Part shown: positions 4,415-44,590 of the stretch, piece after piece | Layout: every line of letters begins with the position of its first letter | Position numbering within the stretch: the first letter of the stretch is position 1 | IMG/VR virus record: IMGVR_UViG_3300049435_000111 | Location: 1-44,590 of that record | Source: a virus | DNA length: 44,590 nt | Direction: 5' to 3' (one strand) | Made by a program: the position numbers and the translations under genes | The notes under the pieces: model-generated | The model's input: the letters and a program-made list of their open reading frames with translations, nothing else | Told to the model about the DNA's origin: nothing | The model's database searches: none

Positions 4415-5107
4415 ATGGCATCGCAAACTGACGTCTATAACCTCGCGCTCACATACCTGGACATCTCCCAGACCGTCCAGAGCGTAAACGATCAAACACC
4501 TGCGGCCGGGGCCTGTAACCGTTGGTATGACTGGGCCCGCAAGAAAGTCCTGGAGCGCGCACACTGGGACTTCGCCACCAAGACGCCCGCGCTCGCCCTG
4601 GTGCTCGATCAAAGCACGCTCCTGCAATCGCAGGTCATCTATCCGGGATGGCGCTACGTCTACGTGCGTCCCGTGGACTGCTTCCGGTTCCTCGGGGTCA
4701 CCACCATGTACGGCCTGCGGACCAATCCCTATCGCGTCTTCTGGTGGTCCTCTGACCAGCCCTTCATTGGCTGGGGCCCGTGGCGCCCGCCCTATCGGGA
4801 AGTGATTGATCAGATCAACACCGCACAGCCCAACAACTCCATCAACATCCTCACAGATCTGGATTCAGCCTATGGGGTGTATGTAACCGATGTGCAGAAC
4901 GTGGGCCTGTGGACCAGCAGCTTCATGGATGCGGTGGCTTGGCAACTCGCCGTCGTCATTGCAGGGCCCTTGTCTGCCAATCAAACCGCCAAAGCCAATG
5001 CGGTGAAGATGATTGACCAATCGATCACCACGGCGCTTGCGATCGGACTGAATGAGCGCCAGAACGATCCTTACCCGGAGTCGCCTGCGATCTCGGCGCG
5101 CAACTGA
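4415..5107 (+). CDS. Tail tubular protein A-like adaptor (T7 gp11-like)
   Basis: A 230-residue protein. The N-terminus TDVYNLALTYLDISQTVQSVND and the ACNRWYDWARKKVLERAHWDFATK segment are typical of the T7 gp11-type head-to-tail adaptor, which forms a ring between portal and tail nozzle. It has a caggagac ribosome-binding site. The next gene, tail tubular B-like, starts inside its stop codon (TGATG), as in many T7-like phages. Confidence 0.85.
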   Translation: MASQTDVYNLALTYLDISQTVQSVNDQTPAAGACNRWYDWARKKVLERAHWDFATKTPALALVLDQSTLLQSQVIYPGWRYVYVRPVDCFRFLGVTTMYGLRTNPYRVFWWSSDQPFIGWGPWRPPYREVIDQINTAQPNNSINILTDLDSAYGVYVTDVQNVGLWTSSFMDAVAWQLAVVIAGPLSANQTAKANAVKMIDQSITTALAIGLNERQNDPYPESPAISARN

Positions 5108-8100
5108 TGGCCGACGAGCCGGTTAATCCGATCCAGACCTCGTTCGCTCGCGGAGAAGTCTCTCCTTTCCTGTTTGGACGCACGGATCTGGCCGGCTGGG
5201 CGCAAGGACTTCGCACGCTGCGTAACTTCACGGTGCGTCCGGAAGGCTGCGTATCCAACCGACAGGGATTTGGCTTTGTGAAGTCCGCACTGACCGCCAC
5301 TTCCAAAGCCTCGATCCTGATTCCGTTCATCTTCTCGGCCACCCAGAGCTATGTGATCGAAGTGGGGGCTGCAACTGCGCAGGTGTTCTCCAACGGAGCT
5401 TTGGTGATCGGAGCTACCTTTGCGACCCCGTGGGCGGCCGGGGATCTGGCATTGCTGCGCTGGGCGCAATCGACCGACACCCTGACGCTGACGCATCCGA
5501 AATACCCGCCCTATGAGATCAAACGCACCAGTGCCAGCAGCTTCACCTGTGTGCCTGCGGTCTACATCAATGGCCCCTTTCTGCAGCAGAACAACGACGG
5601 TACGACCTTCGTATCCGCAAGCGCCGTCACCGGAACAGTGACTCTCATTTCGACTGCGCCGATCTTCAATGCCAATCACGTGGGCGCGCTGTTTCAACTC
5701 ACCCAACAGGATCTGTCCAACATCCAGCCGTGGGAGCCGACCAAGCAGTTTGCCGCAAGCGCCATCATCGGGCAGTACCGCCGGGCGAATCTCAAGAATT
5801 ACAAAGCCGTCTCCTTGGTGACCGCGCCAGCAGCCCAGAACTGTACCGGCACCTGGATACCCTCACACAGCCAAGGCACTCAGGCCGATGGGGATGGCAA
5901 CATCGTGGTGGGACTGGGGCCTGCGGGCGTCAATTGGCAGTACCAGGATTCCGGCTTCGGGGTGGTGCTGATCACCGGATTTACCGATTCCCAACATGTG
6001 ACAGGGGTCGTGCAGCCGAACTATACGGGCGGACCTGGATTGCTGCCGACCTCAGTAGTGGGCGGCCCGATCACGGTCTTTGGTCCTTTCACATTCAGCG
6101 GGACCGGAGCAACGACCAGCTTCGGCCCTATGGGCTCGACTACTTCTGCGGACCCGTCCAAGTACTTTGTGACCATCGGTGGCGTCTACGTCTCGCCTTC
6201 AACCTACACTGTCGTGGCCGCAGGAAACATCACCTTCCTCACGCCACCTGTTGCAGGCACCAACAATATTGTCGTGCGACAGATCAGTCAGTTGGGCGAA
6301 ACCACCTTCTGGGCGTTCGGAGCGATCTCACCCGATCAGGGCTATCCCTCGACCGCTTCCTACTTCCCGGATCGTTTGATTTTGGCCGCAACCGTCGCGC
6401 AGCCGGTCGGCGTGTTCGGCTCCAAAACGAGCTTGTATCACGACTTCGGAGTGAGCAATCCGGTCATCGCATCCGATGCCTTCACCGTCTTTTTGAATGC
6501 CCGCCAGTTGAATGCGATCTCGGACCTGATTCCATTGTCTGACTTGCTGGTCGGAACCTCCAATATCAGTTGGCGGTTGTGGCCCGGATCGACCGGGGTG
6601 GCGCTTTCGCCGCTTGCGATCTCGGCCAATCCGCAGAGCTTCTACGGTCAATCTCCGACCTGTGCCAGCGTGCTCTTCGGGGACTCCGCCATCTTTCCCG
6701 AATACGACGGCCGCCGCCTGCGCGATCTGATTTATCAGTTTGCTTACGATAAGTTCTTAGGCCAGGAACTCACCCTGTATTCCCGGCACCTGATTCCTTT
6801 CGGTACGCAGTTTCAGCGCCTGGCTTACAAGCCCGATCCCACCGGCCAGCTGGTGTTTGGATTGAGGACAGATGGCACGCTGTTGGTATGTACCTACTTG
6901 CGAGACCAACAGGTGATCGGATGGGCACGCTGGGACACGCTCGGAACCTTCGAGGATATCTGTGTCGTGCCAGAGAACACGACCTTTGCGCTATATGCCA
7001 TCGTCAACCGAGTCATCAACAAGAACACAGTACGTTACGTGGAGCGGTTGGAGAACCGTGAAGTCACCACGATCTACGATTATCAGTTCCTGGATTGCAA
7101 CATCACCTATGACGGTCGCAACACCTCGACGACCACCATGTCGCTATCTCAGTTGAATACGGGGTTGGCAGGGGACACTGGATTTCTTCTGGCCTCCAGC
7201 ACGAGTGGGTGGGCAGGGTTTGCAGCCTCTGATGTGACTAACAAAAACGAGATATGGATCTATCAACCCTTTACGTTCCTGACATCGTTGAGCGGTCAAT
7301 CCACTGGAGTGCTGACTTTTTCGGTGGCTGCAGGAACATACATATTGACGTTCTCAGATGGTGAGAGTCGCTCTGTAACGGTGGCAGCCGATGGCATTAC
7401 CTGCAGTTGGCAGGGCAATCTGGCTACTGCAGACATTCTCACTGCAACCTGCCGCTGCCGATTACTGATCATCAGCTTCATCAGCAATACCGGGGTGAAT
7501 GTCCGATTAAAAGATCCGTGTCCTGCCGGATTGCAGAATCCTGTTTTGCAGGCCGGCAACTCCACCACGGTTATCTGGACGTTTGCGCGAACTACGTTCT
7601 CAGGTGCGACTCAGATCGCCAACGCACCGGTCGTGGGCTTCGTGGATGCCAACGTGATCGGCATGAATGCCAACGGCATTTATCCCAATGGTGCCCTCAC
7701 GGTGAGTGCCAGTGGCGTGGTGACACTGCCGGTGGCCGGTGGTGTCGTGCAAGTGGGACTGCCTTACCTGTGCGACTTTGAGACGCTGACCTTGAATGAG
7801 CAGGGACAGCAAACCATCCGCATGCGAGCGAAGGTCAATCCCGTCATCTATCTGGATATCACTGAATCGCGAAACTTCCTGGCCGGTACGGATTTCTCCA
7901 GCATCAACCAGTGGCCGAATGTGGAGCGCGCCTTTGAGCCCTATGTAGCCTCGACGGCATTGCAAGCAGGCATTGCCTGGACGCGGGTGAACTCCGAACT
8001 CTCCAGCGAGTGTCACACCTGCGTGCGGCAGAACATGCCGCTGCCGCTCACCATTCGAGCACATATCCCGCAGGTCACCGTGGGGGCATCGGTTTCCTGA
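5107..8100 (+). CDS. Tail tubular protein B-like nozzle (T7 gp12-like)
   Basis: A 997-residue protein. The N-terminal IQTSFARGEVSPFLFGRTDL and GLRTLRNFTVRPEG.SNRQGFGFV segments mark the nozzle/phage-stabilisation family that forms the distal tail tube of short-tailed phages. Beta-rich throughout. Residues about 735-779 carry a small inserted domain (LTFSDGESRSVTVAADGITCSW pattern, split here by a few residues) that also occurs in the tail spike at residues 470-514. The family member in T7 is shorter (about 790 residues), so insertions such as this one explain some of the extra length. Confidence 0.85.
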   Translation: MADEPVNPIQTSFARGEVSPFLFGRTDLAGWAQGLRTLRNFTVRPEGCVSNRQGFGFVKSALTATSKASILIPFIFSATQSYVIEVGAATAQVFSNGALVIGATFATPWAAGDLALLRWAQSTDTLTLTHPKYPPYEIKRTSASSFTCVPAVYINGPFLQQNNDGTTFVSASAVTGTVTLISTAPIFNANHVGALFQLTQQDLSNIQPWEPTKQFAASAIIGQYRRANLKNYKAVSLVTAPAAQNCTGTWIPSHSQGTQADGDGNIVVGLGPAGVNWQYQDSGFGVVLITGFTDSQHVTGVVQPNYTGGPGLLPTSVVGGPITVFGPFTFSGTGATTSFGPMGSTTSADPSKYFVTIGGVYVSPSTYTVVAAGNITFLTPPVAGTNNIVVRQISQLGETTFWAFGAISPDQGYPSTASYFPDRLILAATVAQPVGVFGSKTSLYHDFGVSNPVIASDAFTVFLNARQLNAISDLIPLSDLLVGTSNISWRLWPGSTGVALSPLAISANPQSFYGQSPTCASVLFGDSAIFPEYDGRRLRDLIYQFAYDKFLGQELTLYSRHLIPFGTQFQRLAYKPDPTGQLVFGLRTDGTLLVCTYLRDQQVIGWARWDTLGTFEDICVVPENTTFALYAIVNRVINKNTVRYVERLENREVTTIYDYQFLDCNITYDGRNTSTTTMSLSQLNTGLAGDTGFLLASSTSGWAGFAASDVTNKNEIWIYQPFTFLTSLSGQSTGVLTFSVAAGTYILTFSDGESRSVTVAADGITCSWQGNLATADILTATCRCRLLIISFISNTGVNVRLKDPCPAGLQNPVLQAGNSTTVIWTFARTTFSGATQIANAPVVGFVDANVIGMNANGIYPNGALTVSASGVVTLPVAGGVVQVGLPYLCDFETLTLNEQGQQTIRMRAKVNPVIYLDITESRNFLAGTDFSSINQWPNVERAFEPYVASTALQAGIAWTRVNSELSSECHTCVRQNMPLPLTIRAHIPQVTVGASVS

Positions 8101-8354
8101 TGGCTACCATCCGCGTACAAGCCACCGCCGCTGGATTCGCGCTCAAGATCTGGCGCGATATCGGAGATGTGTTCGACATCGATTCGAGTCTGTATTCGGA
8201 CTCGACCGTGAGTTATGTTCCTGTGGGAAACCCGGACTATCCGCTCTTTGGCTGGATGTTGCAGGTTCCGGGGCCGACTCCGCTCTACAGCTATGCGCTC
8301 AGTAACGGCGGGCAGTCCACGGTACGCACGAGTGTGCGCAGGTGGGTGCTGTAA
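8100..8354 (+). CDS. Small virion-operon protein, unknown
   Basis: An 84-residue protein. Its ATG overlaps the stop of the nozzle gene by one base (TGATGG) and its own stop overlaps the next start, so it is translationally coupled on both sides. It is beta-prone (YSDSTVSYVPVGNPDYPLFGWMLQ, separated by turns) with no membrane segment. Small genes at this spot in BPP-1-like phages encode tail-associated proteins of unknown role. Confidence 0.65.
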   Translation: MATIRVQATAAGFALKIWRDIGDVFDIDSSLYSDSTVSYVPVGNPDYPLFGWMLQVPGPTPLYSYALSNGGQSTVRTSVRRWVL

Positions 8355-8812
8355 TGCCTGCGGATCTGACGCTGGGAGCGAGTCTGCTACAGGGTGTCGG
8401 GGCCTATGAAACCGGCCGCACCCGATCACTGCTGTTCCGGGCCAATGCCTCGATCGCTACCCAACAAGCGCAATCCGAACGTGAAGCGGGTGCCTACGGC
8501 GAACAGATGGTCCGGATGCGTGGGGCTGCACTGCAGGGCCAGCAGATCGCGCAGATCGGTGCATCCAACCTGCAACAGGGCGGAACGCCTGCAACAGTAG
8601 TGGCCAGTTCCGCCCTGGTCAATGAGATGGATGCTTTGCAAACACGCAACAACGCTTTGCGTAAGGCGTGGGGCTTTGAAGTGCAGGGTGCCTCGGATCA
8701 GTTCCAATCCAAGCAGGCCAACACGGGAGGCATTATCTCGGGTGTGGGCTCGATCCTCAGTGGCGGGGCGAAAGCGTACGAACAGTACAACCAGACGGGG
8801 TCGTTCTTCTAA
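8354..8812 (+). CDS. Internal virion protein (T7 gp14-like position)
   Basis: A 152-residue protein, starting at the ATG at 8354 that overlaps the previous TAA. It is Gln/Ala-rich and helical: NASIATQQAQSEREAGAYGEQ and GQQIAQIGASNLQQGGTPATV, then NALRKAWGFEVQGASDQFQSKQAN and a Gly-rich TGGIISGVGSILSGGAKAYEQY end. This pattern, including the glycine-rich amphipathic C-terminus, is that of the first small ejection protein of T7-like phages, which forms the outer-membrane part of the DNA ejection channel. Confidence 0.7.
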   Translation: MPADLTLGASLLQGVGAYETGRTRSLLFRANASIATQQAQSEREAGAYGEQMVRMRGAALQGQQIAQIGASNLQQGGTPATVVASSALVNEMDALQTRNNALRKAWGFEVQGASDQFQSKQANTGGIISGVGSILSGGAKAYEQYNQTGSFF

Positions 8813-11097
8813 TGCCCACCGTCCCCAATCTCGAGACACCGCAGGTTCAGCAGGAGTCCTTGCCCGGTCGGGCCTTTCCGCGTGTCGATGACAACGTCAA
8901 TTCGGCCGCCTTTGGCGCACCGGTTGCGCAGGGGCTGGAGCACGTCTCGGATGCGATCTCCCAGGAAGACTACAAAGAGAAGGTCCAGAACGACAACCTG
9001 CGGGTGATCGATGCCAACACCCAGTTGGAAGCCGGGCGCAATGCCTTGCTCTACGGCCAGCCGGATAAGGATGGCGTCCGGCAGGGCGGAGCGTTTGCAC
9101 TCCACGGGTTGGATGCCATCAACCTACCGGCCAAGATGCTGCCCGGCTATCAGAAGATCGCTGATGGGATCAGCCAGAGCCTCACTCCGGATCAGCAGCA
9201 GCTCTTTCACGGTCACGTGGCCGCGGGTCAGAACGAACTCAACCTGCAGCTGAATCGGTACGAAGCGGCCGAGAGTGATCGGCTCGCCACCCAGGTCTAT
9301 ACGAATGCGGCATCCCAGGCGGTCGAGAGCGCCTCTGTGGGCTGGCGTGATCCGGTGGTGGTGGGCAAGTCCCGTGCGGATATCAAAGCACTCGTGCAGC
9401 TGCAGGGTGATCGGGAAGGATGGCCGCAGGAAGAACGCGCTGCTCAGACGCAAAAGCTTCTGGCTGAGATGCATTTCAGCGTGGTGGACCGGATGTTGGC
9501 GGACGGCAACCCGCAAGTTGCTCTGGCGTACTTCGTGGGCAGCAAAGCCGAACCGGGTATCCGCGACTCACGCGAGTTGACCGGTCAACAGTCCCATCAA
9601 TTAGGCGCGGCGATCGATGCGGCGATTCGTCAGCAGGGCGTGGAGATTCAGTCGCAGGTGGCGCAGAAGGTGCGTGATGTGCGCAGTGCAGCGATCAACG
9701 GACAGTTGATTCCGCCGTCGTCGATGCCTTCGGATGCTGAGTTGAAACTGGCTTATCCGAACGATTGGCAGCGTGAAAAAGACGGTATCCAACGTGATGT
9801 GCAGATGGGCTCGGACCTGAAGTCCTTTGCCTCACTGACACCAGCCCAGATCGCCGATCACGTCCTGAGCTACAAGCCCACGACGGTCAGCGGTGCTGCA
9901 GAAGAATACGACCGCATGAACGCGGCGTCCGCGGCGGCGCAGCGTACCTTGGCCGAGCGAGCCAAGGACCCACGGCAGTACGCCATCGACAACGGGTTGG
10001 GTTCGAATCCGCTGGACTTCCGGGACGCGCAAGCGACTGCGGCAGAACTGCGCACCCGTCTGACGTCCACCACCACACTGTCCAGGCAGATGGGCGGCTA
10101 TGTTCCGGCACTGACGCGGCAGGAAGCCACTCAACTGGCCTCGACACTCGAAGGCCAAACACCGACGGACCGGTTGCGCACGCTGGGTTCTTTGAGCACG
10201 GCGCTGAACGACGACCGCGGATTCCAGGAAATCATGCGGCAGGTCATGCCCGCCTCTCCGGTCACGGCCATCGTGGGCGCGCAGGTCAGTCAGACCCATC
10301 CCACCAACGCACCGGTCTGGTTCGATCAACACTTCGCGCAACCGCCGGCCAATCAAGCCCACATCCTGGCCGGTGAGCAACTGCTGAATCCGCAGGGCTC
10401 CGAGAAGGAGGGCGGCAAGAAAGCGTTTCCCATGCCAGCCGAAGGCGGGGTTTCGGGGTTGCGCGAGCAGTTCGCGAGTAAGACCGGTGATCTGTTTCGT
10501 ACCCGCCCGGAGTTGGGCGAGGCGTACTACACCGCGTTCAAGAGCGCCTATGCCTCGTTGCTCGCAGATTCAGGCGACCTGTCCGGCGGCGGCAGTAACA
10601 AGCTGCGCGATCAGGCACTCGCCATGAGCGTGGGGAACCTGACCACCTTCCATCACGGTTCCGTGAGTGTGCCGCAGGGCATGGATCCCTCCCGATTTGA
10701 AGGGCTGATGGACAACGCGGTCAATGCACGTGCAATCAACCTGGGTGCACCGGCGGACTGGAAGGACAAGATCGGCGGCTACCAGGTGCGTGAGATCGGC
10801 GGGTTGGGTTCGGGCAAGTACGAGCTCACTAACGGTAACGTGCCTCTGGTGCGCCCGGATGGCAAAGGGCCGTTCGTGGTGGACCTGCGCAACGACTACC
10901 TGCCCGGGGTTGCACACGGATCGCCTGAAGATCAGACCCGCGCCGCACCGGATCCGCTGACTCCGACGGGTGTCGACACGCAGGGGAATGTTCCGAAAGC
11001 AGGCACTGAGCCGCACGCGCTCAAGCCGGTATCGATTCCCACTGGCGGCAAGGGCAAAGGCGCCCGCGAGCACCCGAGTCAGGGGCCTGCGCTATGA
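8812..11097 (+). CDS. Internal virion/ejection protein (T7 gp15-like position)
   Basis: A 761-residue mostly helical protein. N-terminal PTVPNLETPQVQQESLPG..FPRV is the common opening of these proteins; long Gln/Ala helices follow (VTQ-like DAISQEDYKEKVQNDNLRVID, GRNALLYGQPDKDGVRQGG). There is a KTGDLFRTRPELGEAYYTAF segment near residue 560 and a Gly/Lys-rich tail. It lies second among the ejection proteins, where T7 gp15 spans the periplasm. Start overlaps the previous stop (TAATG). No enzymatic motif was seen. Confidence 0.7.
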   Translation: MPTVPNLETPQVQQESLPGRAFPRVDDNVNSAAFGAPVAQGLEHVSDAISQEDYKEKVQNDNLRVIDANTQLEAGRNALLYGQPDKDGVRQGGAFALHGLDAINLPAKMLPGYQKIADGISQSLTPDQQQLFHGHVAAGQNELNLQLNRYEAAESDRLATQVYTNAASQAVESASVGWRDPVVVGKSRADIKALVQLQGDREGWPQEERAAQTQKLLAEMHFSVVDRMLADGNPQVALAYFVGSKAEPGIRDSRELTGQQSHQLGAAIDAAIRQQGVEIQSQVAQKVRDVRSAAINGQLIPPSSMPSDAELKLAYPNDWQREKDGIQRDVQMGSDLKSFASLTPAQIADHVLSYKPTTVSGAAEEYDRMNAASAAAQRTLAERAKDPRQYAIDNGLGSNPLDFRDAQATAAELRTRLTSTTTLSRQMGGYVPALTRQEATQLASTLEGQTPTDRLRTLGSLSTALNDDRGFQEIMRQVMPASPVTAIVGAQVSQTHPTNAPVWFDQHFAQPPANQAHILAGEQLLNPQGSEKEGGKKAFPMPAEGGVSGLREQFASKTGDLFRTRPELGEAYYTAFKSAYASLLADSGDLSGGGSNKLRDQALAMSVGNLTTFHHGSVSVPQGMDPSRFEGLMDNAVNARAINLGAPADWKDKIGGYQVREIGGLGSGKYELTNGNVPLVRPDGKGPFVVDLRNDYLPGVAHGSPEDQTRAAPDPLTPTGVDTQGNVPKAGTEPHALKPVSIPTGGKGKGAREHPSQGPAL

Positions 11098-13007
11098 ACG
11101 CCGTCGTCAGTCCTTTCCCACAGGAAGAGCGCGCGCAGACCGACCGTGCGGAAGGAATGTGGGACCCGTGGAAAGGGCCAACGCCCGGCTCTTTCGGCGG
11201 CGATGTCATTCGCTCGCCCTACACGCTTCTGGAGGGGTTGGGCTCCGGTGCTGCCAAGGGGCAGGCGGTCCTCGGCGGATTGCTGCACACGCAAATGTCC
11301 CCGGACACCGCGCAGATGGCATCCGAAGGCTTGAGCCCGGATGCGATTGCCCGTGCCAAGAGCCAGGCCGATGAGATGCAACAACACGGCGCGGATGCCT
11401 TTATGGCAGACGCCCGTGAGCGCGTCAAAGCCCTGACTCCGGATGCAGCGACCACGGGCACGGCCACTCAGGTGCTGCACAGCGTGGCCTCGGGAGCCGA
11501 GCAACTGATCCTGGGCTCACTGTCAGGCGTTCCCGGGGGCGGTGCGCTCGCGGTGGGTTCTGGCGAGGGTGTGAGTCGCTACCAAGATCTCAAAGAGCAG
11601 GGCGTCGATAGCGGTACGGCGAGAGCATCGGCCGCCGTCACGGCCATCACCGCTGGCGCGGGCGCGCTCGTTCCGGCCGCCTATGGATCCAGCCTCGCCA
11701 CACGATTGCTGACCGGCGCAGGCAGTAACACTGCATTCGGCATGGTCAACCGCGGCGCAGATCATCTGATTCTACAGGCCGGGGGCTATCAAGAGATGGC
11801 CGACCAACAGAAGGTGTGGGACGGAACTCAGATGCTGGTGGATGCCGCACTGGGCGCCACCTTCGGTGCTGTTCATCACGCTTCCACCCCGGCGGAAGCC
11901 AAGGTGGTCGAGGCCCTCAAGCAGAACCGCGATGCCGCCCTGACAGCCAATCTGGCGCTCAAGGACCGGGCCGCGGCGCCGGGTATACCTATCAACCCCG
12001 AATCCGCCAGTGTCCATGCAGCCGCCTTGGAGAAGGCCACACAAGATGTGCTGCAGGGTAAGCCCATCGACGTGGCTGACAGTGGCATCGACCAGGCGGC
12101 GTTCCTGGAGCGACCTGCGCCGGATGACCGGCCGCCCATGGAGGTGATGGCGGCGGCGTTGAAGGAGTCGGGCTTCCTGGACGAGGAGGCGAACCTGCGC
12201 GATCTCGAGGCGCAGTTTGAACGGCGCATGGGCGGCGAGACCGAACGCCGATCAGACAGCGGCCGTCGACAGACTGTCAACGATATGTCACCTGAGCAGC
12301 TGCGTCAGGAACTGCTCACCCACGAGCTCACGGGCATTCCCAACCGGCGCGCCTATGCGGAGAGCGACAAGCTGCCCGCGCAGGTCTCCGTGGATGTCGA
12401 TTCGCTCAAATGGGTGAACGACAACTTAGGCCACGAAGCCGGCGATCAGATGCTGAAGACGGTGGCCGCCTCGCTCGCCAAGCACACTCCTGAGGCCTAT
12501 CACGTCTCCGGCGATGAGTTCATTGCCCAGGCGCGCACCCCGGAAGAAGCGCACGCGACGATGGCGCAGGTGACCCAGCACCTGAAAGACCACGTGATGG
12601 AAGTCACGATGCCCGATGGATCGGTGCGAAAGATCCAGGGACTGGGTGTATCCTACGGCGTAGGTAAAGATCTGCATGAAGCCGACACCGCACTCCAAGT
12701 CCACAAAGCCACCCGAGAAGCAGCCGGCCACCGCGCCGCCCGTGGCGAAGTCCCCCCTGGAGCAGTTGAAGGAAGCGGTGAGCCAGGGCGGCAAGCTGAC
12801 GCGAATCGTCCCGCCGGAGGATCAGGACCCGCAGGTGTAGGAGACCCGGTCACTCAGGCCTTAGCCGAGCGACCCAACCTCAAGATTCCCACCGAGGACG
12901 GCCAGACCGTCAAAGCTTCGGACGCGCTCGAAGCCGCCCAATCCAAAGACGATTGGACCACCGCTGTTAAAGCGGCCGTCAATTGTTTCAGCCGGCGGGG
13001 TGGCTAA
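11094..13007 (+). CDS. Ejection protein with a GGDEF-like (diguanylate-cyclase) domain
   Basis: A 637-residue protein. Residues 1-390 are Ala/Gly-rich with several hydrophobic glycine-rich stretches (about 37-60, 120-160, 175-215), as in membrane-inserting ejection proteins, then an ASVHAAALEKATQDVLQGKP segment typical of such proteins. Residues about 405-560 form a GGDEF domain: ELTGIPNRR (411-419), SVDVDSLKWVNDNLGHEAGD (432-451), SGDEF (472-476) and ADTALQVHKATREAAG. The metal-binding aspartates and NDxxGHxxGD motif are intact. The first Gly of the signature is Ser, a change also found in active cyclases. The inhibitory RxxD site is absent (KHTP there). It lies between two ejection-protein genes, coupled by 4-base overlaps, so it is probably packaged and delivered to the host; whether it makes a nucleotide is unknown. 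Confidence 0.8.
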   Translation: MNAVVSPFPQEERAQTDRAEGMWDPWKGPTPGSFGGDVIRSPYTLLEGLGSGAAKGQAVLGGLLHTQMSPDTAQMASEGLSPDAIARAKSQADEMQQHGADAFMADARERVKALTPDAATTGTATQVLHSVASGAEQLILGSLSGVPGGGALAVGSGEGVSRYQDLKEQGVDSGTARASAAVTAITAGAGALVPAAYGSSLATRLLTGAGSNTAFGMVNRGADHLILQAGGYQEMADQQKVWDGTQMLVDAALGATFGAVHHASTPAEAKVVEALKQNRDAALTANLALKDRAAAPGIPINPESASVHAAALEKATQDVLQGKPIDVADSGIDQAAFLERPAPDDRPPMEVMAAALKESGFLDEEANLRDLEAQFERRMGGETERRSDSGRRQTVNDMSPEQLRQELLTHELTGIPNRRAYAESDKLPAQVSVDVDSLKWVNDNLGHEAGDQMLKTVAASLAKHTPEAYHVSGDEFIAQARTPEEAHATMAQVTQHLKDHVMEVTMPDGSVRKIQGLGVSYGVGKDLHEADTALQVHKATREAAGHRAARGEVPPGAVEGSGEPGRQADANRPAGGSGPAGVGDPVTQALAERPNLKIPTEDGQTVKASDALEAAQSKDDWTTAVKAAVNCFSRRGG

Positions 13008-15601
13008 TGCGTGACGAATGCCAAGCCGCGGTTGAAGAAGCACTCGGTCGCTCGCTTCGCGCGGGTGAAACCAAAAAGATCGAAGACAGCGTCAACCTGC
13101 AGATGCGGCTGCTGGCCCGGGATGATCCGGAAGCCTGGCAGAAACTCTCGCCCTATGACCGCCTCCAACAGGCGGCCCAAGCCTCTGCCCAGGCGATGAC
13201 CGCAGAAGTGAAGTTGAAGCAGGAGCGCGTGCGCCTGCAGATCGAAGCGCACGATCGTATCGAGAACGCACTCAACGCCGCATTCGACAAGCTGCCTGAG
13301 AAAGCCAAACCCGGCTCCATGCTGCGCGTGGTCTCGCAGATGTTGGCCTTCGACACGAAAGCCAAGGGCATGACTTCGGTGGAGACGTGGGCCACCGCAG
13401 TCCGACAGGATGCATTCAGTCAACTGATTCCGTTGTGGAACTCGGTGAAGGGTGTTGCGGGCCTGTTCGAGAATGCCAAGGGCACCGCCGATCTGGTGCG
13501 CGAGCTGCACGGCGAAGACAGTGGCAATGCAGCCGCCAAGGCCGGCGCGGATGCGTGGCGCAAAGTCACCGAAGGATTGCGTGAACGTGCGAATGCGGCC
13601 GGGATGGCGATCGGTAAGCTGGATGACTGGCACTATCCCCAGAGTCACAGTCAGGGGCGTATTGCCAGGGCAGGGTTGGAGCAGTGGACTGAAGACACGC
13701 TGCCCAAGCTCGATCGGTCCAAGTACATCAACCCGGATGGCAGCCGGATGTCCGATGAGGGTGTGGGAGACTTCCTGCGCTATGCCTATGATTCGATCAT
13801 CACCGATGGACAGAACAAGGTTGAGTTGGGTAAAGGAAACCCCGGTGCAGGATTAACAGCAAACCGCCAGAGCGCGCATCGGCAGATCTTCTTCAAGGAT
13901 GCGGATTCGTATCTGGCCTATCAGGGTGATTACGGCGAGAAGAGCCTGTGGTCTACGCTGACCGGTCACGTCGGCACGATCTCACGCGATATCGCGTTGA
14001 ACGAAGTGCTGGGACCCAACGCGGAGCAGACGTTCAAGTACTTCAACGACCGTACGCTACTCGATGAGATGCGGCAGGAGCCCACCGCCAAAAGCAAGAT
14101 CCAGACTGCGGCGAAGTTCAACGAAGCGCTCTATGACAGCGTGGCCGGTAAAACCGGTGTTGTAAACCAGAAGATCGCCGACTTCGGTCAGTCGTTCCGC
14201 AATTGGGAAGTGGCCACCAAGTTGGGCAAGGTCGTGCTCACTGCGCTGGGCGATGAGGCGGGCATGTCGGCCACTGCCTTCGCCAACAAGATCCCCTGGT
14301 CGGAAGTGTTTATCCGTGAGTTCAAGTATCTGAACCCTGCGAACGGTGAAGATAGATCGATTGCCGCGCATGCCAGCCTGGGTCTCAACGGCATCATTGG
14401 CGGATTGAATCGCTTCGGCTCCGAGGATTTGAACCTCAGTAACGGAGTGGGAGCCCTGGCCAAGATTCGGGAATTCACCGCCAAACTCGCTACCGGGGTG
14501 CTGCATGCTTCGGGAGCTGAGGCGATGTGGGACGGCCGCCGTCGTGGCTTGGGTTCCGTATTGATGTCCTATCTGGGCAAGACCGTCAGTGAGGTCGAGC
14601 ACTTCGCGGATATCAATCAGGCAGATCATGGAATTCTCGCCAACAAAGGTGTGACTGAAAACGACTGGCAGGTCTGGAAGGCGGCGCAAGCTGAAGACTG
14701 GGGCATGAAACACGGTGTGCTGACGCCCAAGGCCGTGCAATCGATTCCCGATGAAGCCATTGCGCATCTCGGAGACCCGGATGCGTTGCGTCGCCATGCC
14801 TCCACGATGTTGCTGGGACACGTGCTCGAAGAGATCGGGATGGGCGTCATGGATACGGGCGTGCGTGAGCGAACCGCCATGCGCTTTGGTACGCAGGCCG
14901 GGACGAAGGCCGGGGAGTTGATCCGCTCCATGTTGCTATTCAAGGGCTTCTCCGCCTCGATGATGATGAAACACTGGGCGCGTGCGTCTGACATGCCCAC
15001 CGCGTCCGCCAAGGGGATGTATGCCGCGCGCCTGCTCGTGACGGGAACCATCATGGGCGCTGTGGCAACCCAACTGCGCAACCTCGCCGCCGGCAAGAAT
15101 CCACAGAATGTGGCAGAACCTCAGTTCTGGGGAGAGGCCACGCTGCGCGGGGGAGGGCTGGGATTCTACGGCGACTTCCTGTATTCGGAAGCGACCAGTC
15201 ACGATACAACATTGATTCCCGCGCTCATGGGTCCGCTGGCGACCGAGTCGGAATCGGCCTGGAATCTCACCGGCGGGGCTGCTTTCAAAGCCGCTCGAGG
15301 GGAGCGCACGGACGAGGGCGCGAAGCTCCTGCGCTATGCCAAGGGCAATATTCCCTTCTTGAATATGTGGTACACGCAGGCCGCAACCGATCACCTCATC
15401 TGGAATGAGATGCAAGAGGCGGTCTCCCCGGGATATTTGGATCGCATGCAGGTCAAGGCCGAAACCACCCGCGGGACCAGTTGGTATTGGGACCCGCACG
15501 ACAGCGCGCCGCAATCAAAACCTGACTTCGCGAAACTCTGGCAACCGGAGCGGGGTGGTGAGCAATTGAGCAAGATAGCCGATACAATCGGAGTGGAGTG
15601 A
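13007..15601 (+). CDS. Large internal virion/ejection protein (T7 gp16-like position)
   Basis: An 864-residue protein using the ATG at 13007 that overlaps the upstream TAA; an in-frame ATG at 12983 also exists. It begins MRDECQAAVEEALGR and is helical, with C-terminal LLFKGFSASMMMKHWARA and AARLLVTGTIMGAVATQLRNLAAGK, the hydrophobic patch conserved in the largest ejection proteins of BPP-1-type podoviruses. No lytic transglycosylase motif was seen, unlike T7 gp16. Expected role: the inner-membrane end of the ejection conduit. Confidence 0.75.
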   Translation: MRDECQAAVEEALGRSLRAGETKKIEDSVNLQMRLLARDDPEAWQKLSPYDRLQQAAQASAQAMTAEVKLKQERVRLQIEAHDRIENALNAAFDKLPEKAKPGSMLRVVSQMLAFDTKAKGMTSVETWATAVRQDAFSQLIPLWNSVKGVAGLFENAKGTADLVRELHGEDSGNAAAKAGADAWRKVTEGLRERANAAGMAIGKLDDWHYPQSHSQGRIARAGLEQWTEDTLPKLDRSKYINPDGSRMSDEGVGDFLRYAYDSIITDGQNKVELGKGNPGAGLTANRQSAHRQIFFKDADSYLAYQGDYGEKSLWSTLTGHVGTISRDIALNEVLGPNAEQTFKYFNDRTLLDEMRQEPTAKSKIQTAAKFNEALYDSVAGKTGVVNQKIADFGQSFRNWEVATKLGKVVLTALGDEAGMSATAFANKIPWSEVFIREFKYLNPANGEDRSIAAHASLGLNGIIGGLNRFGSEDLNLSNGVGALAKIREFTAKLATGVLHASGAEAMWDGRRRGLGSVLMSYLGKTVSEVEHFADINQADHGILANKGVTENDWQVWKAAQAEDWGMKHGVLTPKAVQSIPDEAIAHLGDPDALRRHASTMLLGHVLEEIGMGVMDTGVRERTAMRFGTQAGTKAGELIRSMLLFKGFSASMMMKHWARASDMPTASAKGMYAARLLVTGTIMGAVATQLRNLAAGKNPQNVAEPQFWGEATLRGGGLGFYGDFLYSEATSHDTTLIPALMGPLATESESAWNLTGGAAFKAARGERTDEGAKLLRYAKGNIPFLNMWYTQAATDHLIWNEMQEAVSPGYLDRMQVKAETTRGTSWYWDPHDSAPQSKPDFAKLWQPERGGEQLSKIADTIGVE

Positions 15602-29634: not shown

Positions 29635-30090
29635 CTAGGCTGCCGCTCCATAGTGAGCATCAGCGTACTTCGACACCTCGGCCGCCAGATCCGGCTCGCT
29701 CATCTCCAGGATGCGCGCGCAGACCGTCATCATCGCGGCTGCGACCTTGCCAAACTCAACATCGTCCGGAATGGCGTCGTAGCTGACGCTGCCAGGCATT
29801 GTTTTGATCTCGCCTTCGAGGCTGATGTAGGACTCGACGTGCCCAGAGGCTTCCGCAACTGCGTAGCGAAATTGGTTGAAACTGGCATATGAGCGAGCAT
29901 ATTTCTCTGGCAGATGCTCATAGGTGAGATTCAGCAGCGCCATGATCAAACACAAATGTTTGTAATTGCGGGGCCGCACCAGATCAGCCCGATACACCCC
30001 GCCGACCTTGTACTTGCGCAAGAGCGTTAGGCTCGGTTCGTCGGCCGGTACAAAGCCGGTGAGGACCCTTTTGAGATGGAGGCGTGCCAT
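29635..30090 (-). CDS. DUF1367 family protein
   Basis: A 151-residue protein. The DUF1367 signature is visible: FVPADEPSL at the start, KYKVGGVYRADLVRPRNYKH, LIMALLNLTYEHLPEKY, then FRYAVAEASGHVESYISLEG and SVSYDAIPDDVEFGKV. The family is widespread in lambdoid and related phage recombination regions; function not proven. It shares a TAATG junction with the ATPase gene upstream. Confidence 0.85.
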   Translation of the reverse strand: MARLHLKRVLTGFVPADEPSLTLLRKYKVGGVYRADLVRPRNYKHLCLIMALLNLTYEHLPEKYARSYASFNQFRYAVAEASGHVESYISLEGEIKTMPGSVSYDAIPDDVEFGKVAAAMMTVCARILEMSEPDLAAEVSKYADAHYGAAA

Positions 30091-31025
30091 TACGCGGTCT
30101 CGGCAGCGTTCCGATGTCCCGCCGGCGGATTGGCGCGCTTGAGGATGGCGCCGATGCGTTTCTGCTCATCGTGCGTTAGTAGCTTCCATGCGGCCTCGGC
30201 TACCTGTTTATCCTTGAGTCCTTCTTCGAATACCTCTACGGTCGCCTCATCAATACCAACTTCCAGCGCATCAACCATCCGTTTGCCGAGTATCTGCGCG
30301 GGCGTGAGAGGCTGCTCTTGGCGCGGCTCAGGTGCTCCGGTAGGGGCCACGACCGTTCCCGATTCCAGCCACTCAACCAGACTGCGGCCAGTTCCCGGGG
30401 TGATCACGAATGGCTCTTTGAACAGCGGAGTGCGGTCTTTGCTGGCGATGGCGAAGTGCTTTTCGTGCTCCAGATCAAGCACGACCGTGAATTCGTACTC
30501 AGCACCTTCCCGCTGAATGGCCTTCATGCCGAGCTTTTTGACTTTCTTGTCATCGCCCTGCACCGTCTCAGTCTTGCTGCGCATGGTCGCAATGACGTGC
30601 ATGGGGGATTGCAGGATGGCATCCAGAAAGGCCCGGTGCCTCGGCGTCGTCTCGTTCCAGGCGGCCCATGTGTTGCCGCGAAACTTCGCGTGGGCAATCT
30701 GCTCGTTGATCTCGAGACAACCCCCCGCGCCGTCCCACTCGTGCGTGATGCTATCGAACACGCACACATCGTATCCAGCTTGTGCAGCGGCAGACAGCGC
30801 CTCTATGCAGCGCTCAGGCGTGAATGGAGGCGCCACCTCCAAGGTGTCAAACTCAACGACATCGCTGTAGAGCGAAGCAGATCCCCGCTCTGTATCGATG
30901 ACAGCAATCTTGCCGCCGACACCTTTGGCGATCAGGAGCGCGCCATAGGTCTTTCCCGAACCACTCGGGCCACTCAGCGCCAGCCGTAGCTTTGCGCGCT
31001 TGCGAACAGCCTTAGTAAATTGCAT
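30090..31025 (-). CDS. Sak4-like RecA-fold ATPase (recombination)
   Basis: A 311-residue protein from the ATG at 31025 with ggaggaa upstream. Walker A is GPSGSGKT near residue 19, preceded by KLRLALS. IAVIDTERGSASLYS follows, then Walker B-like GYDVCVFDSITHEW, and HVIATMRSKTE (sensor). This is the Sak4/AAA_24-type single-strand annealing ATPase of phages, used in recombination and repair of phage DNA. The C-terminal 80 residues are a helical extension (TPAQILGKRMVDALEVG, KQVAEAAWKLLTHDEQKR). Confidence 0.8.
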   Translation of the reverse strand: MQFTKAVRKRAKLRLALSGPSGSGKTYGALLIAKGVGGKIAVIDTERGSASLYSDVVEFDTLEVAPPFTPERCIEALSAAAQAGYDVCVFDSITHEWDGAGGCLEINEQIAHAKFRGNTWAAWNETTPRHRAFLDAILQSPMHVIATMRSKTETVQGDDKKVKKLGMKAIQREGAEYEFTVVLDLEHEKHFAIASKDRTPLFKEPFVITPGTGRSLVEWLESGTVVAPTGAPEPRQEQPLTPAQILGKRMVDALEVGIDEATVEVFEEGLKDKQVAEAAWKLLTHDEQKRIGAILKRANPPAGHRNAAETA

Positions 31026-31222
31026 CACAGTTCCTCCAGTCTCTTCGCCTGCAGGTAAATCCCGTACTCGATGCCCGCGTTCCAACACTCGATGCACCAG
31101 CACCCCGCCTCGTGCGCCGGCCTGCGCGGCTCGACCGGTGGCACAGGCTCGCCCGCAATGCCCGCCGGCAGGGGAGCGCTCAAGTCAACAGCGCTTTGGT
31201 GTCGGTAGTGACCTTTGCTCAT
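31025..31222 (-). CDS. Small Cys-containing protein
   Basis: A 65-residue protein. Pro-rich middle (SAPLPAGIAGEPVPPVEPRR) and a C-terminal HEAGCWCIECWNAGIEYG that could bind a metal. The ATG at 31222 overlaps the previous stop (ATGA); the stop shares its A with the ATPase start (TGATG). Confidence 0.6.
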   Translation of the reverse strand: MSKGHYRHQSAVDLSAPLPAGIAGEPVPPVEPRRPAHEAGCWCIECWNAGIEYGIYLQAKRLEEL

Positions 31223-34170: not shown

Positions 34171-34565
34171 AAACCTTCCTGTCACGCCTGGATGGAGTGC
34201 GCGGCCGGAACGGTTCTTGGGTCGCGCGTTGCCCCGCGCATGCGGACAAATCCCCGTCGCTGTCGGTCAAGGGCCTGCCTGACGGTCGTATCCTGATGCA
34301 CTGCTTTGGCGGGTGTGGGACGGATGCCGTCTTGGAGGCGTTGGGTCTGGCAATGACCGATCTATTCCCCGAGCGGTTGGGGGATTTTGCCCCCGTGAGG
34401 GGTTTGTTTTCGGCGTCCGATGCACTGCGATGCTTATCGTTCGAGTCCAGCATTGCGGCCCTTGCCGCCTGTGACATCGCAGAAGGCAGGCCGGTGAATG
34501 TCAGCCGGGTCTGCATCGCGGTAGGCCGGATCGCCGAAGCGCTGGAGTTTGTCCATGGCCGGTAA
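34161..34565 (+). CDS. Primase-type zinc-binding protein (CHC2-like), no TOPRIM
   Basis: A 134-residue protein. VRGRNGSWVARCPAHADKSP then DGRILMHCFGGCGTDAVLEA is the CHC2 zinc finger of DnaG-type primases (Cys, His, Cys, Cys) and LGLAMTDLFP follows. The catalytic TOPRIM part is absent, so this is the stand-alone zinc-finger form common in phages. It starts inside the stop region of the initiator gene. It may guide host primase or act with the helicase next door. Confidence 0.8.
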   Translation: MDVETFLSRLDGVRGRNGSWVARCPAHADKSPSLSVKGLPDGRILMHCFGGCGTDAVLEALGLAMTDLFPERLGDFAPVRGLFSASDALRCLSFESSIAALAACDIAEGRPVNVSRVCIAVGRIAEALEFVHGR

Positions 34566-35508
34566 TCCCACAGACGACTCGATTGCACGAATCGACATCG
34601 CTCGTGCGCGGCGGATCGGGCAGATGTTGGCGCCCGCGGAAGCACCGGAGTTTGACGAGGATCCGGACGAGCTCTTGGACATGGGGCGCTTGGATGGCAA
34701 ATCACTTCTCGAGCAGTACGAGGAGGAAATGGCCTGCTTCGCCACGACGCCGTTTGACCGATATGGGGAGCGACTGCGGCTATATCCGTGCGGAGTTACG
34801 ATCTGGTCAGGTTTCCCAGGCGCTGGCAAGACAACGCTGTTGAGGCAGTTGGCCTGTCATCTGCTGCAGCGGGAACAGGGCGTATTCTTCGCCAGTCTCG
34901 AGGAGCATCCGAAGCATCTGCTCGTGCGACTCGCGGCGACCGCTGCCGGTACTGAAACCCCAAATGCGCATCAGGTGCAATGGTTCATCGATGCGTATGG
35001 GGAACGATTGCGGATCTGGGCCAAGGTTGGTATGGCCAAGCATCGGAGCATTTTGGCGGTGGTGCGCAAACTCGCGGTCTCAGGCACCTCTCACGCAATC
35101 ATCGATTCGCTGATGAAGTTGGATATCTCGAGTCAGGACTTCGAGGGGCAGCGCATTTTCGCGAATCTATTGGCCGCCACCGCTGCGCAAACCAGAATCC
35201 ACGTTCACCTCGTGGCCCATCCGAAAAAGCCACCACTGGCAGATCAGGATCCAGACATCAACGATGTTGGAGGCGCGAAGGAGATTGGTGGAATAGCTGA
35301 CAATGTTGTATTTGTCAGACGTAGTCGCAAGGAGGGCGAGAATCCGTTAGCTACTCAGACGGGCATGTGCATCACGATCCGCAAGCAGCGTCATGGGAAT
35401 GGATCGATGGGCGATATCAAAGGTTGGTTCCATCGGGACAAGCGTCAATTCAACTTGGATCAATTCGCGCAGCCCATTCGCTATCTTCCGGATGATGCCT
35501 ACACGTGA
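34555..35508 (+). CDS. RecA-fold replicative helicase (DnaB/Twinkle-like)
   Basis: A 317-residue protein from the ATG at 34555 (ggag 6-8 bases upstream). RLYPCGVTIWSGFPGAGKTT holds Walker A; GVFFASLEEHPKHLLVRL is the Walker-following segment; SHAIIDSLMKLDIS is Walker B; HVHLVAHPKKPP and GGAKEIGGIADNVVFVRRSR fit the DnaB-like motifs H3/H4 and arginine finger. It is shorter than DnaB (no N-terminal domain). Likely function: opens DNA at the origin. Confidence 0.82.
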   Translation: MAGNPTDDSIARIDIARARRIGQMLAPAEAPEFDEDPDELLDMGRLDGKSLLEQYEEEMACFATTPFDRYGERLRLYPCGVTIWSGFPGAGKTTLLRQLACHLLQREQGVFFASLEEHPKHLLVRLAATAAGTETPNAHQVQWFIDAYGERLRIWAKVGMAKHRSILAVVRKLAVSGTSHAIIDSLMKLDISSQDFEGQRIFANLLAATAAQTRIHVHLVAHPKKPPLADQDPDINDVGGAKEIGGIADNVVFVRRSRKEGENPLATQTGMCITIRKQRHGNGSMGDIKGWFHRDKRQFNLDQFAQPIRYLPDDAYT

Positions 35509-44358: not shown

Positions 44359-44590
44359 TCGAAGAAGAGAATCCCGACGCGCTCGATCTGGAGGCTGCAC
44401 AAAGTCAGGTCCAGAAGACGCGCCTCCTCGAGGAGATGGACCGGGACGGCGAGATCGCACAGCTGAATGCGCTGCTGCAGGATGAGCCGATGCGCGACTT
44501 CCTGTGGCGCGTGTTGGGTCACTGTCACATCTTCCAGTCCACGTATCAGAAGAACTTCGGGGATATGGCGCTGCTCGAGGGCAAGCGCCA
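44355..44590 (+). CDS. Bbp19-like head protein, 5' part (continues at window start)
   Basis: Starts with a GTG at 44355 that overlaps the portal stop (GTGA). The first residues are acidic (EEENPDALDLEAAQSQVQKT) and lead directly into the domain whose C-terminal part lies at 1-261. The frame is continuous across the circular join, which supports the closure. Confidence 0.85.
   Translation, partial: MIEEENPDALDLEAAQSQVQKTRLLEEMDRDGEIAQLNALLQDEPMRDFLWRVLGHCHIFQSTYQKNFGDMALLEGKR
44466..44590. repeat. Terminal direct repeat, right copy
   Basis: Exact copy of bases 1-125. Joining the two copies restores the open reading frame that begins at 44355 and ends at 261. Confidence 0.95.

Follow-up and report, generated by a model that had tools for sequence, protein, structure and literature searches.

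A GGDEF domain as putative cargo of an epsilon15-type podovirus ejection protein

Results and discussion

A GGDEF domain with an intact active site and no inhibitory I-site was identified by computation inside a gp16-like ejection protein of an epsilon15-like podovirus, in a carrier whose homology to epsilon15 gp16 and whose swapped central segment could be traced across related phages. We favour, with moderate confidence, a scenario in which gp16 is packaged and ejected as a carrier and its GGDEF cargo makes an early c-di-GMP pulse favouring the phage.

Genome and gene neighbourhood

The window, i.e. the whole stretch of 44,590 nucleotides analysed, begins and ends with a direct terminal repeat of 125 bp (positions 1-125 and 44466-44590), and therefore probably represents the entire genome, about 44.5 kb with a circular map, of an epsilon15-like podovirus. 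Its major capsid protein is of the GP7 type (PF20911), its connector matches Head-tail_con, and the order gp12-like, gp13-like, gp15-like, gp16-like, gp17-like is that of epsilon15. The first-pass annotation had referred to BPP-1-like phages; the closest well-known phages turned out to be epsilon15 and phiV10 (Uetakevirus), BPP-1 being absent among the matches listed. The genes surrounding the GGDEF domain are:

8342..8812, + strand: gp13/14-like internal virion protein (phrog_418)
8812..11097, + strand: gp15-like ejection protein (phrog_992, phrog_10475; epsilon15 gp15 annotation)
11094..13007, + strand: gp16-like ejection protein with the putative GGDEF cargo, 637 aa, ATG start
13007..15601, + strand: gp17-like virion structural protein (phrog_684, E 1e-233; ATG 13007 preferred)

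As initially proposed, the GGDEF gene is flanked by ejection-type genes, its neighbours corresponding to gp15 (phrog_992) and gp17 (phrog_684) of epsilon15. Overlaps of 4 bases had been claimed on both sides. The upstream one indeed comprises 4 bases (ATGA), but the downstream one is reduced to 1 base (TAATG), the most likely start of gp17 being ATG 13007 and not TTG 12983. Elsewhere in the window, the gp12-like tail protein (5107-8100) is 997 aa long versus 825 aa for epsilon15 gp12 according to the annotated coordinates, and the non-structural half encodes an AAA_24 ATPase (30090-31103, - strand) and a DnaB-like helicase (34549-35508, + strand). No RNA families or tRNAs were found within the window.

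The gp16 carrier

Two parts of the protein are common to the gp16 family:

11094..12113, + strand: N-terminal gp16 body, residues 1-340, mostly helical (low-confidence model); PHROG 1145 matches residues 45-374
12849..13004, + strand: C-terminal tail, residues about 586-637, with the pattern ..AA.C..R, common to gp16 homologues of 430-1924 aa

Judged by homology and by gp15/gp17 synteny, the product of ORF 11094-13007 is an epsilon15 gp16 homologue. Residues 1-340 share 30-40% identity with gp16 of ZX5, epsilon15, YeP5, HB2107 and IMG/VR relatives, and the last 50 residues or so match the tails of these homologues, one Cys being kept in 15 out of 15 aligned. In T7, the last five residues of gp16 are required for infectivity (PMC8954989). 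The joint structure prediction of the full gp16 reached a pLDDT of 48.5, and this low confidence led us to build no topology claim on the model. Hydrophobic N-terminal stretches had been described as common to gp16 and its neighbours; they are moderate in gp16 (maximal 19-residue Kyte-Doolittle mean of 1.49, at residue 178), and no stretch exceeds 1.3 in gp15 or gp17.

Identification of the GGDEF domain

The ORF proved to be real, and profile, PDB sequence and fold matches agree on the GGDEF domain that the first-pass annotation had placed in it:

12231..12794, + strand: GGDEF module, residues about 380-567, common to giant polyvalent proteins; catalytic domain at residues 394-559

The Pfam GGDEF profile PF00990 matches residues 429-540 with an E-value of 2.2e-10 and 41 bits, above the curated cut-off of 23.8, which places the domain in the PF00990 superfamily. 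With phmmer, 27 distinct solved GGDEF/diguanylate cyclase sequences were matched at E<1e-3, and PHROG 5594 was matched at E 1e-23. The motifs given in the first-pass annotation were found at the residues stated there: E411-LTGIPNRR, D434-V-D436-SLKWVN442-DNLGHEAGD451, S472-GDEF476 and A530-D-TALQVHK538. Neither a sensory domain nor, besides the single GGDEF effector, any LPD or other polyvalent domain was found in the 637-aa protein.

The predicted structure has the cyclase-like GGDEF fold, with a pLDDT of 97.4 and a pTM of 0.90 for the AlphaFold model of the domain. All 50 PDB structure matches listed are GGDEF proteins, with query-normalised TM-scores of 0.54-0.68 and rmsd of 3.6-8.3 Å; against the solved cyclases listed, the TM-scores are thus low and the rmsd high, so that canonical activity should not be taken for granted. 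A phage homologue was matched with a TM-score of 0.94 and an rmsd of 1.3 Å. As modelled, the window domain represents a compact, divergent subfamily variant.

Active site and missing I-site

An alignment search of IMG/VR brought up 151 relatives; 79 loci were retained, and 74 phage domains were aligned. The full-length protein used as IMG/VR query gave no match because single-sequence patterns are strict; domain and alignment queries gave matches. Two elements of the active site serve as landmarks:

12393..12395, + strand: D434, first metal ligand (equivalent of PleD D327), present in 74/74 of the family
12507..12521, + strand: SGDEF signature, residues 472-476 (G473 and E475 in 74/74, D474 in 73/74)

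The residues expected of an active cyclase are present in the window domain: D434 and D474 for the metal (PleD D327 and E370), N442 and D451 for the guanine (N335 and D344), and those contacting phosphate. The early reading of the metal-binding aspartates and of NDxxGHxxGD as intact is thus borne out, both by the window residues and by the alignment, where the metal ligand D434 is retained throughout. N442 and G450 are likewise invariant, K538 is found in 71 and D451 in 65 of the 74 domains, and the first G of the GG[DE]EF signature is replaced by S, as in the window domain, in 58. Since the IMG/VR search patterns used LKW.ND and GDEF, counts inside these motifs are partly set by construction; D434, K538, G545 and R547 lie outside the patterns. 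The RxxD inhibitory site, already reported as missing, is indeed absent from the I-site position in the window domain, and 0/74 aligned phage domains carry it there. In GGDEF domains that make cGAMP, the guanine-contacting residue equivalent to D451 differs.

An exchangeable segment between body and tail

Because the gp16 homologues share their ends while their middle changes, we use the term "cargo slot", and on comparison of the sequences gp16 looks like an ejection protein in which this slot is exchangeable. Nothing recognisable lies between body and tail in gp16 of YeP5 and of locus L151. In L152 (5290-7005), which comes from the same metagenome as L151, an ART-PolyVal domain matching Pfam above the curated cut-off is found between the ends, and the two gp16s differ mainly by the loss or gain of this ART-like segment. 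A Zeta-toxin-like kinase and a ddrB-ParB domain are found in gp16 of L154 (6908-10606, running off the contig end so that the tail is outside the sequence) and L155 (6965-10711), and Zeta lies between the ends in L239. The gp16 of L149 (2358-7001), a phage whose gp17 is 65% identical to that of the window, combines ART, Zeta and ddrB-ParB; L241 (1660-7431, - strand) exhibits LPD23, a metallopeptidase-like DUF6782, PBECR3 (a PBECR RNase), ART and ddrB-ParB, the ART matches in L149 and L241 being below the Pfam curated cut-off. Finally, L242 (2613-7463, - strand) carries LPD3 and ddrB-ParB. At least two unrelated effectors in one large protein, as in polyvalent proteins, are thus present in L149 and L241 and not in the 637-aa protein, whose GGDEF is a single domain of the polyvalent effector type.

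The exact gp16-GGDEF fusion was found in no relative: the sampled genomes of two groups contained carrier homologues and no close kin with a GGDEF in gp16. Separately, a tblastn match to ZX5 gp16 extended into the GGDEF region; a GGDEF in that protein was rejected, the motif being absent.

We tentatively extend this picture to epsilon15-type podoviruses in general. Their gp16 would be a dedicated effector carrier, whose body and Cys tail bracket swapped enzyme domains (cyclase, ADP-ribosyltransferase, kinase, ParB-like nuclease, RNase, peptidase); the first event of infection, ahead of phage gene expression, would be a burst of second messenger or some other modification, and the pyrophosphatase fused in some phages may drive the cyclase forward.

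The domains swapped into the slot and the polyvalent companions (ddrB-ParB, ART, PBECR, methylase-helicase, InPase) belong to the early-conflict type, a standalone GGDEF relative adjoins an antirestriction gene in phage PAC6, and interference with host nucleotide responses has already been proposed (PMC5512222). The delivered domain could serve counter-defence: through its product, or by binding GTP or signalling nucleotides, it would disturb CBASS, CRISPR type III or alarmone systems and not ordinary c-di-GMP signalling. We regard this as rather unlikely: the guanine-contacting D451 is intact, which points to GTP and c-di-GMP, PADLOC gave no match and no defence target was identified.

Origin and relatives of the module

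Most GGDEF relatives sit in ORFs of 1000-6000 aa, and the giant ORFs scanned contained the polyvalent domains LPD5, LPD22, LPD23, InPase and strawberry-notch helicase. The window module pairs with that of L012, a phage polyvalent protein of 2774 aa, with 63% identity and a support of 98/93 in a tree whose root is arbitrary and whose deep branches are not resolved. The two modules have common boundaries, at residues of about 380-577, and unrelated flanks. Phages of Yuavirus and Vojvodinavirus encode standalone GGDEF copies.

In 14 other podovirus contigs (13 distinct ones, as the cassette coordinates of L061 and L062 are identical), the GGDEF ORF begins 2.1-5.9 kb after the gp12-like tail-tube gene. 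This position just after the tail-tube gene is where ejection proteins are encoded. Together with the slot in the ejection protein, this recurrence at the podovirus ejection position is better explained by delivery than by action of the domain in the producing cell, through late gp16 synthesis or in a lysogen, with delivery incidental. Such a role, which we consider highly improbable, would fit the location of gp16 in the late structural cluster, from which more copies would be made than packaged, and the standalone GGDEF of Bordetella phage LK3, in whose lysogens biofilm formation is increased, a correlation only (PMC8471281).

Comparison with known systems

The window protein shares with the epsilon15 gp16 family (Uetakevirus; PHROG 1145) the gp15-gp16-gp17 order, the N-terminal body and the C-terminal Cys tail. 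Unlike it, gp16 of epsilon15, ZX5 and HB2107 lacks both a GGDEF motif and any Pfam domain, and that of YeP5 lacks a GGDEF motif. The polyvalent GGDEF proteins of Iyer et al. (2017, PMC5512222), to which L012, the 63% kin, is related in kind, likewise carry the GGDEF among several domains of one protein, for which injection has been predicted, but are 1000-6000 aa long, whereas here one cargo domain is found in a 637-aa ejection protein. The standalone GGDEFs (YuA gp44, PAC6, CN1 and FP1; Yuavirus/Vojvodinavirus) belong to the same DSLKW.ND subfamily and are 33-39% identical to the window domain; they differ in being about 156 aa long, in the non-structural region and without fusion to a virion protein. 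Cellular cyclases such as PleD, DgcZ and WspR have the same fold and active-site residues, but the window domain is shorter, has neither sensory domain nor I-site, and reaches TM-scores of only 0.54-0.68 among the matches listed.

In 2017, Iyer et al. listed GGDEF among polyvalent-protein domains as "not very widespread" and predicted that injected polyvalent proteins carry it (PMC5512222). In the open-access literature searched, no report was found of a GGDEF in an epsilon15-type or other podovirus ejection protein, nor any that treats gp16 as a site of domain swapping. Four observations are, as far as searched, new: that an epsilon15-type ejection protein contains a GGDEF, that its slot looks swappable, that the active site is conserved over 74 phage domains, and that GGDEF can adjoin a pyrophosphatase domain, as described below. 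If gp16 delivers an active cyclase, the virus particle would set the c-di-GMP level of the recipient before gene expression. The 2017 prediction could then be put directly to the test in epsilon15, whose virion type is small and well studied, and nature would provide a set of injected effectors that are interchangeable and have defined boundaries. The part played by podovirus ejection proteins would extend beyond the making of a DNA channel to the delivery of enzymes.

Proposed mechanism and dose

The first-pass idea that the particle may deliver this domain to a new host finds partial support in the fold, the active site, the missing I-site, the location in an ejection protein, and the cargo of relatives at this position, which is typical of injected polyvalent effectors. 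How it might work is inferred here, from packaging and topology through dimerisation and activity to product and benefit. gp16 would be packaged, then ejected either before the DNA or together with it. Its helical N-terminal body would embed in the inner membrane, leaving the cargo in the cytoplasm, where the oligomeric ejection complex could gather the GGDEF domains and allow their dimerisation. The dimers would convert GTP to c-di-GMP, presumably free of product inhibition since the I-site is absent, and the early pulse may shift host motility, envelope and biofilm to the advantage of the phage.

Assuming a kcat of 0.1-1 per s, and with 1 nM corresponding to about 0.6 molecule in a volume of 1 fL, ten minutes of activity by a dozen cyclases could raise c-di-GMP by an amount of the order of micromolar; at this order of magnitude the dose is not absurd. 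Phage P22 injects about 12 gp16 molecules (PMC8402733), and epsilon15 is counted by synteny among the phages with gp14/15/16-type ejection proteins (PMC8954989). About a dozen molecules would still make a small dose, which counts against the c-di-GMP pulse that we favour.

Adjacency of pyrophosphatase and GGDEF domains

Some cellular GGDEF domains merely bind nucleotides, and the fold found here is compact and divergent, as might be expected of a module that is catalytically silent and serves nucleotide binding or structure. This is nevertheless very unlikely, considering that the metal and guanine residues are kept in essentially all 74 divergent phage domains and that the domain is repeatedly paired with a pyrophosphatase (InPase). 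A cyclase frees two PPi per c-di-GMP; a pyrophosphatase would remove this PPi, and the pairing therefore suits catalysis.

The window protein itself has no InPase. InPase and GGDEF were found in one protein at 14 loci, and in 7/14 they are at most 40 aa apart. These 7 close pairs compare with 0.58 expected under random placement, an excess that is inflated because the test ignores shared ancestry between loci; both orders occur, with InPase upstream in three pairs and downstream in four. The loci with InPase within 40 aa of GGDEF are L012, L014, L026, L029, L030, L036 and L041.
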